Assembly: GCF_036700095.1 (NCBI RefSeq)
Contig: NZ_CP144918.1
Coordinates: forward strand, 559,001-623,000
DNA: 64,000 nt
Source of the DNA: Pelagerythrobacter marensis
Lineage (GTDB): Bacteria; Pseudomonadota; Alphaproteobacteria; Sphingomonadales; Sphingomonadaceae
Direction of reading: 5' to 3'
The position numbers were made by a program, and so were the translations under genes. The notes under the pieces were generated by a model. It worked only from the letters and a program-made list of their open reading frames with translations. It was not told the origin of the DNA and made no database searches. Numbering within the stretch: the stretch's first letter is position 1; each line of letters starts with the position of its first letter. Below, piece by piece: positions 16,503-25,787 of this stretch.

Positions 16503-16577
16503 TGGTGCTGCTGGGGAGGATTGAACTCCCGACCTCACCCTTACCAAGGGTGCGCTCTACCACTGAGCTACAGCAGC
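16503..16577 (-). tRNA. tRNA-Thr (anticodon GGT)
   Basis: On the minus strand a complete cloverleaf can be traced: acceptor stem GCTGCTG/CAGCAGC, D arm TAGCTCAGTGGTAGAGC, anticodon stem-loop CACCC-TTGGTAA-GGGTG with anticodon GGT, T arm with GGTTCAA-type loop (GGGAGTTCAATCCTCCC), discriminator A and an encoded CCA at 16505-16503. It reads ACC/ACU threonine codons. Confidence 0.97.
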
Positions 16578-22820: not shown

Positions 22821-25787
22821 ATGACTGAACAGCGCGACTATAAAGACACGGTCTTCCTGCCCAGGACCGATTTTCCCATGAAGGCCGGCCTTCCGCAGAA
22901 GGAGCCGGGCATTCTCGCGCGCTGGGAAGAACAGGGCCTCTATCGCCAGTTGCGCGAAGCGCGCGCCGGGCGCGAGAAGTTCGTGCTCCACGACGGCCCG
23001 CCTTACGCCAATGGCGACATACATATCGGGCATGCGCTCAACCATGTGCTCAAGGACATGGTCGTGCGCACGCAGACTCTGCTCGGAAAGGACGCGCCCT
23101 ACGTTCCCGGCTGGGACTGCCACGGGTTGCCGATCGAGTGGAAGGTCGAGGAGCGGTACCGCAAGAAAAAGCGGAACAAGGACGAGGTGCCTCCGGCCGA
23201 GTTCCGCGCCGAATGCCGCGCCTATGCCCAGCACTGGGTCGACGTGCAGCGTGAGCAGCTCAAGCGGCTGGGCATCAACGGCGACTGGGACAATCCCTAT
23301 CTGACGATGGATTTCGGGGCCGAGGCGACGATCGTTGCCGAGCTGCTCAAGTTCGCGGAAAGCGGCCACCTCTATCGCGGCGCCAAGCCGGTGATGTGGA
23401 GCCCGGTGGAAAAGACCGCGCTGGCCGAGGCGGAGGTCGAGTACGAGGATATCGTCTCCACCCAGATCGACGTGGCGTTCGAGATCGTCGAAAGCCCGAT
23501 CCCCGAACTGGTCGGCGCCCACGCGGTGGTGTGGACGACGACGCCGTGGACGATCCCGGTGAACCAGGCTTTGGCCTATGGGCCTCGCGTCGCCTACGAG
23601 CTTGTCTATGCGAGCGATGGAAACAGGTATCTTGTCGCTCACGAACTCCGCGACGAATTTCTCAAACGTACAGGCTTGGGAGTAGTCGACGCTCCCCAAC
23701 AGGGCGATGTTGATTCAACTGAGGATGTGACCGACTGGGCGAATCGTCACATGTACCTCGGATCAAAGCTCGAAGGCACCTTCGCGCTCCACCCGATCGC
23801 CAAGCTCGTGAGTCTCCGCGAAGGCGGGGACTCGCAGGCGGTCGAATTCTTCCTCAAGCCCCGTCCCTTCCTCCCGGCCGATTTCGTCACCACCGACAGC
23901 GGCACCGGGCTCGTCCATATGGCGCCCGACCATGGCGAGGACGACTTCGTGCTGTGCAAGGCGCACGGCCTGACGCCCAAGTTCGTGGTCGAGGCCGATG
24001 GCCGCTACCGCGACGACTGGGCCTGGCTCGGCGGCGCGGACGAGCGGCGCATGTCGGTCATCAACCCGAAGTTCAACGCACCGGACGGCCCGATCTGTTT
24101 GGACTTGCGCGAAGCCGGCGCGCTGCTTTCGGCCCGTGCCGATTACAAGCATTCCTACCCGCATTCGTGGCGCTCCAAGGCCAAGGTCATCTATCGCTGC
24201 ACCCCGCAGTGGTTCGTGCCGATGGACAAGCCGCTGGCCCCCGCCCCCAAAGGGGGAGGATCGGGTCACGACAATCCTCCCCCTCTGGGGGAGGTGGCAG
24301 CCGCGCCAGCGGCTGACGGAGGGGGCGCGACTCTGCGCAGCACCGCCCTCGCCGAAATCGAGCGCGTGCGCTTCGTGCCCGAAAAGGGGCGCAACCGCAT
24401 CGGCGCGATGGTCGAGGGGCGGCCCGACTGGGTGCTCAGCCGCCAGCGCGCCTGGGGCGTGCCGATCACGCTGTTCGTGAACCGCAAGACCGGCGAGTAT
24501 CTGGTCGATCCGGCGGTCAACGCGCGGATCGTGGAGGCCGTGCGCGCGAAAGGCGTCGACGCCTGGACCGAGGAAGCCGCGGCCGAACTGCTCGGCCCCG
24601 ACTACGACCCGGCGGACTACGAACGCGTGACCGACATTCTCGACGTCTGGTTCGATTCGGGCTGCACCCATGCTTTCGTGCTCGAAAGCGGGCGCTGGCC
24701 CGAACTGCGCTGGCCCGCCGATCTCTATCTCGAAGGGTCGGACCAGCATCGCGGCTGGTTCCAGTCCTCGCTGCTCGAAGCCAGCGCCACGCGCGGACGG
24801 GCGCCTTACGACGCGGTGCTGACCCACGGGTTCACAATGGCGAGCGACGGCAAGAAGATGTCGAAATCGCTCGGCAACACGGTCGATCCGATCAAGGTCA
24901 TGGGACAATACGGGGCGGATATCATCCGCCTCTGGGCGCTCTCGGTGGACTTTACCGAGGATCACCGGATCGGCGACGAGATCCTGAAAGGCGTTGCCGA
25001 CCAGTATCGCAAGCTGCGCAACACCTTCCGCTACATGCTCGGCGCGCTCGACGGGTTCGATTACGAGCGCGAGGGCGTCGACCCGGCGGATATGCCGGAG
25101 CTGGAGCGCTATGTCCTGGGCGAACTTCACGCCCTGGATACCACGCTGCGGCGCGCGATCGCCGATTTCGATTTCAACGAATATACCCGCGCGCTGGTCG
25201 ATTTCGCGAACGAGGACCTGTCGGCGTTTTTCTTCGATATCCGCAAGGACAGCCTCTATTGCGACGGCGAGGACGATTTGCGCCGCCGCGCCTATCGCAC
25301 CGTACTCGACATCCTGTTCCACGCGCTGGTGCGCTATGCCGCGCCGGTGCTGGTGTTCACCGCCGAAGAGGTCTGGACGACGCGCTTTCCGGACCGCGGC
25401 AGCGTGCACCTGCAGGAACTCTCGCCCCTGCCCGACAGCTGGGTCGATCCCGCGCTGGCCGAACGCTTCGCCGGGCTGCGCGCGCTGCGCGAGCAGGTGA
25501 TGGAAGCGATCGAGCCGCTTCGCCGCGAGAAAGTCGTGCGCTCGGGGCTGGAGGCGGAAGTTGCCGTGCCCGCCGCGGCGGTGCCCGAAGGGTTCGGGGA
25601 TGCCGACCTGGCCGAGCTGTTCATCACCGCGTCAGTCACGCGCAGGCAGGGCGACGGCGTGACCGTGACGCGCACCGACGACCACAAATGCGGCCGCTGC
25701 TGGCGGCTGCTGCCCGAAGTGACCGAAGACGGCGCCCTGTGCGGGCGCTGCGCGGACGTGATCGCCCGAACGGATGCCGCCGTATGA
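22821..25787 (+). CDS. ileS: Isoleucyl-tRNA synthetase with an in-frame repeat insertion
   Basis: 988-aa class I synthetase charging tRNA-Ile. Signatures are PYANGDIHIGHALNH (HIGH 68-71), the CP1 editing domain (TTPWTIPVNQAL; GTGLVHMAPDHGEDDF), KMSKS at 679-683, and a C-terminal zinc finger with two CxxC pairs (CGRCWRL...CGRCAD). Between MDKPL (468-472) and TLRSTAL about 31 residues rich in Gly, Pro and Ala (473-503) are encoded by a GC-rich palindromic repeat and have no counterpart in IleS proteins I know. A second stretch near 23.61-23.77 kb in the editing domain is less GC-rich than its surroundings. It ends overlapping lspA (ATGA). Confidence 0.97.
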   Translation: MTEQRDYKDTVFLPRTDFPMKAGLPQKEPGILARWEEQGLYRQLREARAGREKFVLHDGPPYANGDIHIGHALNHVLKDMVVRTQTLLGKDAPYVPGWDCHGLPIEWKVEERYRKKKRNKDEVPPAEFRAECRAYAQHWVDVQREQLKRLGINGDWDNPYLTMDFGAEATIVAELLKFAESGHLYRGAKPVMWSPVEKTALAEAEVEYEDIVSTQIDVAFEIVESPIPELVGAHAVVWTTTPWTIPVNQALAYGPRVAYELVYASDGNRYLVAHELRDEFLKRTGLGVVDAPQQGDVDSTEDVTDWANRHMYLGSKLEGTFALHPIAKLVSLREGGDSQAVEFFLKPRPFLPADFVTTDSGTGLVHMAPDHGEDDFVLCKAHGLTPKFVVEADGRYRDDWAWLGGADERRMSVINPKFNAPDGPICLDLREAGALLSARADYKHSYPHSWRSKAKVIYRCTPQWFVPMDKPLAPAPKGGGSGHDNPPPLGEVAAAPAADGGGATLRSTALAEIERVRFVPEKGRNRIGAMVEGRPDWVLSRQRAWGVPITLFVNRKTGEYLVDPAVNARIVEAVRAKGVDAWTEEAAAELLGPDYDPADYERVTDILDVWFDSGCTHAFVLESGRWPELRWPADLYLEGSDQHRGWFQSSLLEASATRGRAPYDAVLTHGFTMASDGKKMSKSLGNTVDPIKVMGQYGADIIRLWALSVDFTEDHRIGDEILKGVADQYRKLRNTFRYMLGALDGFDYEREGVDPADMPELERYVLGELHALDTTLRRAIADFDFNEYTRALVDFANEDLSAFFFDIRKDSLYCDGEDDLRRRAYRTVLDILFHALVRYAAPVLVFTAEEVWTTRFPDRGSVHLQELSPLPDSWVDPALAERFAGLRALREQVMEAIEPLRREKVVRSGLEAEVAVPAAAVPEGFGDADLAELFITASVTRRQGDGVTVTRTDDHKCGRCWRLLPEVTEDGALCGRCADVIARTDAAV
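24243..24326. repeat. Palindromic GC-rich repeat element inserted in frame within ileS
   Basis: The element starts GCCCCC and ends GGGGGC. Inside are nested inverted repeats: GGGGGAGGAT (24252-24261) with ATCCTCCCCC (24274-24283); CCTCCCCC (24276-24283) with GGGGGAGG (24287-24294) around TCT; and CAGCCGC with GCGGCTG around GCCA (24299-24316). The pattern looks like a dispersed intergenic palindrome of GC-rich alphaproteobacteria, yet here it is translated (...NPPPLGEV...). No second copy was found in this window. The insertion keeps the reading frame. Confidence 0.75.

Follow-up and report, generated by a model that had tools for sequence, protein, structure and literature searches.

How did a nest of GC-rich palindromes come to stand in frame within the gene of an essential enzyme? 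The question is raised by ileS, encoding isoleucyl-tRNA synthetase (IleRS), of Pelagerythrobacter marensis, which lies in the window analysed here, a stretch of 64,000 nucleotides (nt) from contig NZ_CP144918.1 (assembly GCF_036700095.1, positions 559,001 to 623,000). A first-pass annotation, made from the sequence alone, described 31 extra codons in this gene and likened them to Rickettsia palindromic elements (RPEs). We find that the insert is very probably a copy of a short dispersed palindromic repeat, akin to RPEs and to repetitive extragenic palindromes (REPs), which entered in frame at a loop that tolerates arbitrary peptide. In the following, G000 denotes the window's own genome, and other G and L labels denote the relatives, loci or rows compared.

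A palindromic insert in ileS

The features of the gene and its insert, in window positions, are as follows.

22821..25787, forward strand: ileS, isoleucyl-tRNA synthetase, intact, 988 amino acids in one open frame
24237..24329, forward strand: in-frame palindromic insert of 31 codons (APAPKGGGSGHDNPPPLGEVAAAPAADGGGA, residues 473-503), recognised by inverted repeats, fold and comparison with G006
24237..24298, no strand: large imperfect hairpin, arms 24237-24261 and 24274-24298, 25 nt, 88% complementary
24276..24294, no strand: CCTCCCCC..GGGGGAGG hairpin, arms 24276-24283 and 24287-24294, 8 nt, 100% complementary, of a kind that also adjoins other genomic copies
24289..24322 (G000:C1:583289-583322), reverse strand: REP-like, CGTC-tagged core unit CCTCCGTC-AGCCGC-TGGC-GCGGCT-GCCACCTCCC, one of the 15 genome matches to the core pattern

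The extra codons, their nested inverted repeats and the open frame are thus as the first-pass annotation had described them. Its statement that the catalytic motifs are intact on both sides also holds, with the Pfam domains tRNA-synt_1 and Anticodon_1 at residues 31-716 and 762-915, respectively. The insert is placed between QWFVPMDKPL and TLRSTAL, and the spacing from QWFVPMD to TLR amounts to 34 residues in the window and 7 in G006, which makes visible the indel that the annotation had proposed to look for among relatives. In addition to the hairpins listed, two inverted repeats span larger parts of the segment, one of 10 nt (24229-24238/24305-24314, 100%) and the other formed by the terminal GCCCCC/GGGGGC pair (24237-24245/24318-24326, 9 nt, 89%). 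The insert has a GC content of 76%, compared with 66% for ileS, and the 93 inserted bases are open in four of the six frames. Folding of the 105 nt between 24231 and 24335 gave a minimum free energy of -68.2, compared with -52.2 +/- 4.2 in dinucleotide shuffles (z -3.8), and this stability was reached by none of 200 shuffles.

When IleRS was aligned to the best-matching solved structure (PDB 8c9e), residues 468-505 were left unaligned, facing residues 415-418 of that enzyme, which would have about four residues at the insert position. Judging from the sequence, the 31-residue peptide is probably translated as part of IleRS and is likely to lie in a surface loop. We take this loop to fall between the editing domain and the KMSKS motif, also in view of the order of motifs along the sequence.

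Dispersal of the repeat in the genome

The 93 bases of the insert, used as a BLAST query against their own genome, gave 45 matches at E<=10, and those at E<=4.3e-4 merged to 19 places, ileS included. The core pattern CCTCCGTCN{8,26}CCACCTCCC matched the genome 15 times, compared with none for a reversed-pattern control. The dispersal that the first-pass annotation could only guess is confirmed in this way. The copies share in their flanks a common build, CCTCCCC-x-GGGGAGG-TGGC..hairpin..GACGGAGGGG, and vary in the sub-hairpins they carry. Accordingly, what had been called an 84-base element is indeed multi-copy, but its length is only approximate. Inspection of the 15 core copies by eye shows a central stem that varies yet stays paired: AGCCGC..GCGGCT, AGCGC..GCGCT, AGCCC..GGGCT, GACCC..GGGTC and CCCGCC..GGCGGG. 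On plasmids, the window-type repeat was found at three places, all in two plasmids of Sphingomonas parapaucimobilis; an annotated gene covers one of the three.

Four of the 19 places (ileS, valS, uvrA and truB) lie inside frames with recognisable protein on both sides, and a fifth, in a gene with an Smr domain, probably holds the repeat in frame. The copies outside ileS are listed below.

G000:C1:2051099-2051222 (L002), reverse strand: double insert of the same repeat kind in valS, in frame, between GWP and YPNDLLISG; common to G006, absent in G005
G000:C1:1598185-1598279 (L012): in-frame palindromic insert in uvrA; relatives hold several other repeat kinds (by eye) in the same loop
G000:C1:1757083-1757131 (L011): in-frame repeat in truB, between the Pfam domains TruB_N and TruB_C_2
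G000:C1:1187545-1187688 (L005), reverse strand: probable in-frame repeat in the Smr-domain gene, with a Pfam domain on the downstream side only and a presumed start upstream of the insert

Among the 14 places outside named genes, frames were scanned with Pfam at 12, that is, at all except L004 and L017. At five of these (L006, L007, L009, L010 and L013), the open frame of the element runs on into a downstream Pfam domain. We take these elements to lie upstream of the true start, an N-terminal in-frame extension being the alternative. The frames at the other seven scanned places contain no Pfam domain. Two of the properties of protein-coding palindromes, multiple genomic copies and frame-keeping insertion into conserved genes, are found in the window's element, the latter in ileS, valS, uvrA and truB and probably in the Smr-domain gene.

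The IleRS loop in Sphingomonadales

All 59 genomes searched for ileS gave a match (weak in G027 and G058), and the loop was read in 39 rows of the order, window included; G012 was not readable, and the cut in rows L042, L043 and L069 was placed a few codons too late, within the stretch that follows. A second set of 80 named genomes yielded 74 parsed loops, 44 from Sphingomonadales (L092, L145 and L149 being counted there from their position in the tree) and 30 from other Alphaproteobacteria. Loops classified by eye as repeat-type make up 10 of the 39 rows of the first set and 16 of the 44 Sphingomonadales rows of the second, with one genome apparently present in both (G026). None was found in the 30 rows from other Alphaproteobacteria, where loops measure 0-13 residues as cut, and in the outgroup families the loop consists of 2 residues.

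The remaining Sphingomonadales rows (29/39 and 28/44) are not repeat-type. The loop has 6-7 residues in G006, G007, G011, G017 and G030, while in many rows the loop is about 26-34 residues long and belongs to one of two recurring non-repeat kinds (..RWEGEGGAxxPAEE.. and ..DFDVAPGxPLGGAVAPF..). Because most of the Sphingomonadales loops read differ from that of the window and are not repeat-type, the loop is older and more variable than the first-pass annotation assumed. That annotation would have given up its reading if most Sphingomonadales had the same loop with unrelated DNA and if the repeat had no other genomic copies. The first part is close to what we see, but the two together do not hold, since other copies exist.

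Repeat kinds were assigned by eye from motifs. The loop of G005 is the window's element, and that of G025 is a related element with the same core. Between the window and G005, the loop length varies by 27 nt, which is divisible by three and leaves an open frame in each, so the frame of the element has probably been maintained. A second kind, with CCCTCTCCC/GGGAGAGGG-like loops, occurs in G032, G034, G015, G033 and G031. Dimers of REP-like TGAGCctGTCGAAG represent another kind at the site; the G021 loop is a dimer of REP-like units (TTCGGGCTGAGCCTGTCGAA), and G026 holds what seems to be a worn REP-like unit. A further kind, with CCAGC/GCTGG, was seen in Sphingobium lactosutens (L095). The IleRS loop is hence hypervariable in Sphingomonadales, with different hairpin repeats at the same point, and some lineages probably had a loop already, which the repeat then replaced or was added to.

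The stretch AWEGEGD in repeat-bearing loops was also considered as a remnant of the conserved RWEGEGG loop. This is unsupported: several loops hold AWEGEGD and the CCCTCTCCC-type palindrome together, and the stretch therefore seems to belong to that repeat. The loops of L098 and L099 begin with a similar hairpin (ACCTGCC..GGCAGGT and ACCATCC..GGATGGT), with paired bases changed on both sides, which is unlike the other repeat kinds. The CCCCAACCCCTCTCCC..GGGAGAGGGG repeat type, seen in several ileS loops, is present on 10 plasmids as well. Part of the G033 loop (CCCTCTCCC/GGGAGAGGG type) was recovered from 10 plasmid records, at 70 places in total; the hosts, Azospirillum, Xanthomonas, Vitreoscilla, Sinorhizobium and Deinococcus, all lie outside Sphingomonadales.

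Copy number, folding and phylogeny of the loops

Copies of loops in their own genomes were counted at E<=0.01, with the ileS loop itself included and matches merged within 150 bp because palindromes match on both strands. The G021 loop is present at 40 places (78 matches), that of G034 at 32 (49 matches), that of G031 at 17 (21 matches), and that of L095 at 14 (16 loop matches and one in the flank). With G000, the loop is thus multi-copy in all five genomes searched with their own repeat-type loop; G005, G025, G026 and the named genomes other than that of L095 were outside this search. G032, G015 and G033 were queried with the G034 loop only, which gave 12, 30 and 51 matches, including the ileS loops of G032 and G033 and not that of G015. 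As a control, the non-palindromic G002 loop was searched in five genomes, and below E 0.01 it matched only the ileS loops of G002, G004 and G014, everything else being at E>=0.01.

The fold test was applied to ileS loops of at least 60 nt with 60 shuffles each; UvrA loops and two of the five ValS loops stood outside it. Values of z range from -2.2 to -10.9 in repeat-type loops, L111 excepted (discussed below), and from -1.6 to +1.9 in non-repeat loops. The palindromic loop of L099 (z -4.2) belongs to no assigned kind and was tallied as non-repeat in the tree. L037 was counted likewise, having a 9-nt inverted repeat reached by 1/60 shuffles and z -0.9. L081, with 11 residues, is below the length of the fold test and was tallied as repeat-type from its peptide.

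When the loop was excluded and a tree was built from 85 IleRS rows, no fewer than 23 changes of loop type were needed on it, a count that cannot separate gain from loss; the simple distinction between repeat and no repeat needs 19 changes. The tree holds 85 of the 113 rows read, most non-Sphingomonadales rows having been dropped and L094 and L102 omitted as presumed duplicates of G026 and G043. Its four outgroup rows do not fall on one side of a branch, and several forks are weak. The window, G005 and G006 form a supported three-row clade.

Comparable loops in ValRS and UvrA

Among the genes with in-frame copies, comparison with relatives covers valS and uvrA, and not truB or the Smr-domain gene. 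The stretch of valyl-tRNA synthetase (ValRS) from GWP to YPNDLLISG has about 9 residues in most rows read and 22 in G001 and G004. Of 30 rows, 23 could be read, and in five of them the stretch is repeat-type: G000 and G006 share one insert, which G005 does not have, G021 carries the window's core type, and G007 and G022 carry REP-like units. In our reading of the surrounding motifs by eye, this site is not homologous in position to that of IleRS. In UvrA, the stretch before FSEKFAC was judged repeat-type by eye in 9 of the 28 rows read out of 30 (G000, G002, G003, G004, G008, G010, G017, G019 and G021). With both strands counted, the uvrA element of G002 matched its own genome 47 times and G008 29 times.

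Relation to known palindromic elements

The CGTC and GTAG REPs (PMC3733652; 2013, BMC Genomics 14:522) are, in the excerpts of that study considered here, short palindromes that are mostly intergenic, with some located in open reading frames and encoding tens of residues; those tagged with CGTC occur mostly in alphaproteobacteria. Host genes of REPs named in the same excerpts are tRNA synthetase genes in X. oryzae, E. lithoralis (E. litoralis) and S. alaskensis, truB in the latter two, and uvrA in other species; ileS or valS may already be among the genes concerned. The truB copy described above recalls the REP and RPE insertions in truB that they report. A precedent for recurrence at one site is given by recB, in which different REPs occupy about the same position in two Xanthomonas species; recB apart, these passages describe REPs in genes of one functional category at different sites. 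Compared with them, the present case differs in that orthologues from across an order repeatedly carry repeats, of several kinds, at the same site.

The window core resembles CGTC REPs, as far as these are characterised in the same excerpts, in its CGTC tag, with CCTCCGTC in 15 places, although the search pattern itself demands the tag (the reversed control gave 0). It also has a loop, TGGC, that follows the rule of 4-5 nt and a CCA-containing tail, GCCA, while several other copies have 3-nt loops. It is unlike them in its stem, AGCCGC/GCGGCT, which comprises 6 bp (7 if the tag C pairs) with G-C as the second pair, where the rule is 8-9 bp with A/T pairs first and second. The extra CCTCCCC/GGGGAGG hairpins that flank the core are a further difference. 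The core is therefore not filed as a CGTC REP: tag, loop and tail are alike, but the stem rule is missed.

RPEs, according to the accounts of Ogata et al. (2000, 2002) contained in PMC10969869 and PMC2229807, are selfish palindromes translated in frame in conserved genes, and the sections of PMC2229807 used here describe an RPE-bearing Gmk that is translated and active, with changed substrate affinity. It is by behaviour that the window's palindrome, in frame in conserved genes, can be likened to the RPEs of these accounts; it differs from them in its occurrence in GC-rich Sphingomonadales instead of Rickettsia and in the several repeat kinds that share one landing loop. The G021 ileS loop, which consists of two inverted REP-like units and recurs dozens of times in its genome, has a layout similar to that of REPINs (paired, inverted REPs), which, like REPs, are described in the literature portions available as mobilised by REP-associated tyrosine transposases (RAYTs). 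PF01797 (Y1_Tnp, RAYT) had no match in G000 or G021 at E<=0.001 and none in G005 or G034, and it was present in 4 of the 15 genomes tested. A RAYT-driven REP was rejected for G000 on this ground. For a miniature inverted-repeat transposable element (MITE), one would look for terminal inverted repeats with a target-site duplication; the termini of the insert do pair (GCCCCC/GGGGGC), but there was no clean empty site that could show a duplication.

Origin of the insert

Directly observed are the dispersal of the repeat, the intact frame, and the presence of unrelated dispersed palindromes in the same loop of other lineages. Palindromes of this sort would insert at many chromosomal places, through the action of some enzyme. 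Most insertions into genes would be harmful, and those in essential genes would persist only in loops that accept arbitrary peptide, provided that the element is free of stops in the frame and has a length divisible by three. In IleRS, the insert would be read as a Gly/Pro/Ala-rich linker that follows the QWFVPMD motif and precedes both the TLR..A stretch and the KMSKS part. In loops of IleRS, ValRS and UvrA, repeats would accumulate, be exchanged and disappear again in the course of time, and the enzyme would be affected hardly or not at all. The in-frame, RPE-like invasion of an essential enzyme that the first-pass annotation proposed thus stands with respect to dispersal and frame; what falls is its singularity, this being one of many insertions at the site by several unrelated kinds, with similar cases in ValRS and UvrA.

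Several points weigh against this reading. Neutrality of the insert for the enzyme is assumed. No empty and filled pair of near-identical strains was found, and because G006, the nearest insert-free relative, differs in flanking codons too, the exact junction and any target duplication are not readable. A RAYT-type transposase (PF01797) has no match in G000, and other transposase families were not searched. The copy-number control rests on one loop (G002), and loops had been classed as repeat-type by eye before the fold test was run. In that test, the repeat-type L111 (z -1.5) overlaps the non-repeat range, and its longest inverted repeat was reached by 25/60 shuffles; the longest inverted repeat taken alone was also reached by 5-13/60 shuffles in L049, L058, L092, L094 and L095. 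Finally, the 10-nt inverted match mentioned above joins the repeat to native AAGCCGCTGG codons on its left, which might signify that the element prefers this site and did not land there at random. DGG, found at the right end of the repeat, also closes the short loops of G006 and G011. Both these loop ends and the match with the KPL codons possibly reflect homology at the insertion site, or chance.

Site preference is the core of an explanation by targeted capture, in which insertion machinery would prefer these loops, owing to a DNA motif, to single-strand exposure in transcription or replication, or to repeat homology, and recurrence would reflect site choice and not survival alone. The same loop being hit by about four repeat kinds, the repeated changes of loop type on the tree, and the perfect complementarity of the native KPL codons AGCCGCTGGC to the repeat stem GCCAGCGGCT in the window are in its favour. 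Unrelated repeat kinds would, however, need a common preference, and no evident motif common to the ValS and UvrA loops was noticed by eye, no motif search having been made. As survival in permissive loops accounts for the recurrence without targeting, we regard targeted capture as improbable.

Somewhat less probable still is a functional insert, kept by selection because an mRNA hairpin or protein linker tunes IleRS through translation pausing, mRNA stability or partner binding. The computed mRNA hairpin is very stable, and the window and G005 have the element at the same place, but G006, from the same supported clade, lacks it, and other lineages hold unrelated sequence or just 2-7 residues. 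An ordinary GC-rich variable loop, not mobile and palindromic by chance or composition, would agree with the finding that most Sphingomonadales rows read have a variable loop, mostly not repeat-type. It is contradicted by the shuffle test on the window and the dispersed chromosomal copies, on which the chance palindrome was rejected, and by the single control loop, which is not multi-copy, together with the z values of non-repeat loops; we give it hardly any credence. A pseudogene or assembly artefact, for which no supporting sign was found, can be practically dismissed, given the full open frame with both Pfam domains (catalytic and anticodon-binding), the homologous insert in the separately assembled G005, and the ileS search in G000, in which the two matches listed of six are the full-length ileS and a partial one in valS.

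Beyond the capture of a dispersed palindrome in ileS, we tentatively consider a broader possibility, which we hold to be rather less than an even chance. A few loops (IleRS after QWFVPMD, ValRS after GWP, UvrA before FSEKFAC) may be recurrent docking sites in Sphingomonadales, where unrelated selfish hairpins are captured, exchanged and worn down, and where non-coding palindromes give rise to new peptide segments of essential enzymes. Some non-repeat loops, such as RWEGEGGAxxPAEE, would then be eroded older captures, a step that is pure conjecture.

Other observations in the window

Within ileS, the segment 23580-23790 (roughly residues 254-323) has a GC content of 56%, compared with 66% for the gene, and alignments to G016, G017, G021 and G031 also break around it. 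A second variable region is one possible reading, a patch of foreign origin another. A tRNA at 16506-16577 on the reverse strand is the sole Rfam match above gathering score in the window.

Significance

In-frame palindromes are already known; what is new here is that unrelated families have been captured repeatedly at the same site. A literature search in PMC full text, outside which most subscription journals lie, yielded no description of a single loop that has received several kinds of repeat across an order. For GC-rich Sphingomonadales, the results extend protein-coding palindromes from single reports to a recurrent pattern. They also point to loops of IleRS, ValRS and UvrA in which long foreign peptides seem to be accepted, and annotation and alignment of these three proteins in the order should expect such inserts. 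One loop of one essential enzyme, filled many times with different selfish DNA, amounts to a natural replicate experiment, which makes it testable whether mobile non-coding DNA builds protein and whether the inserts are neutral.

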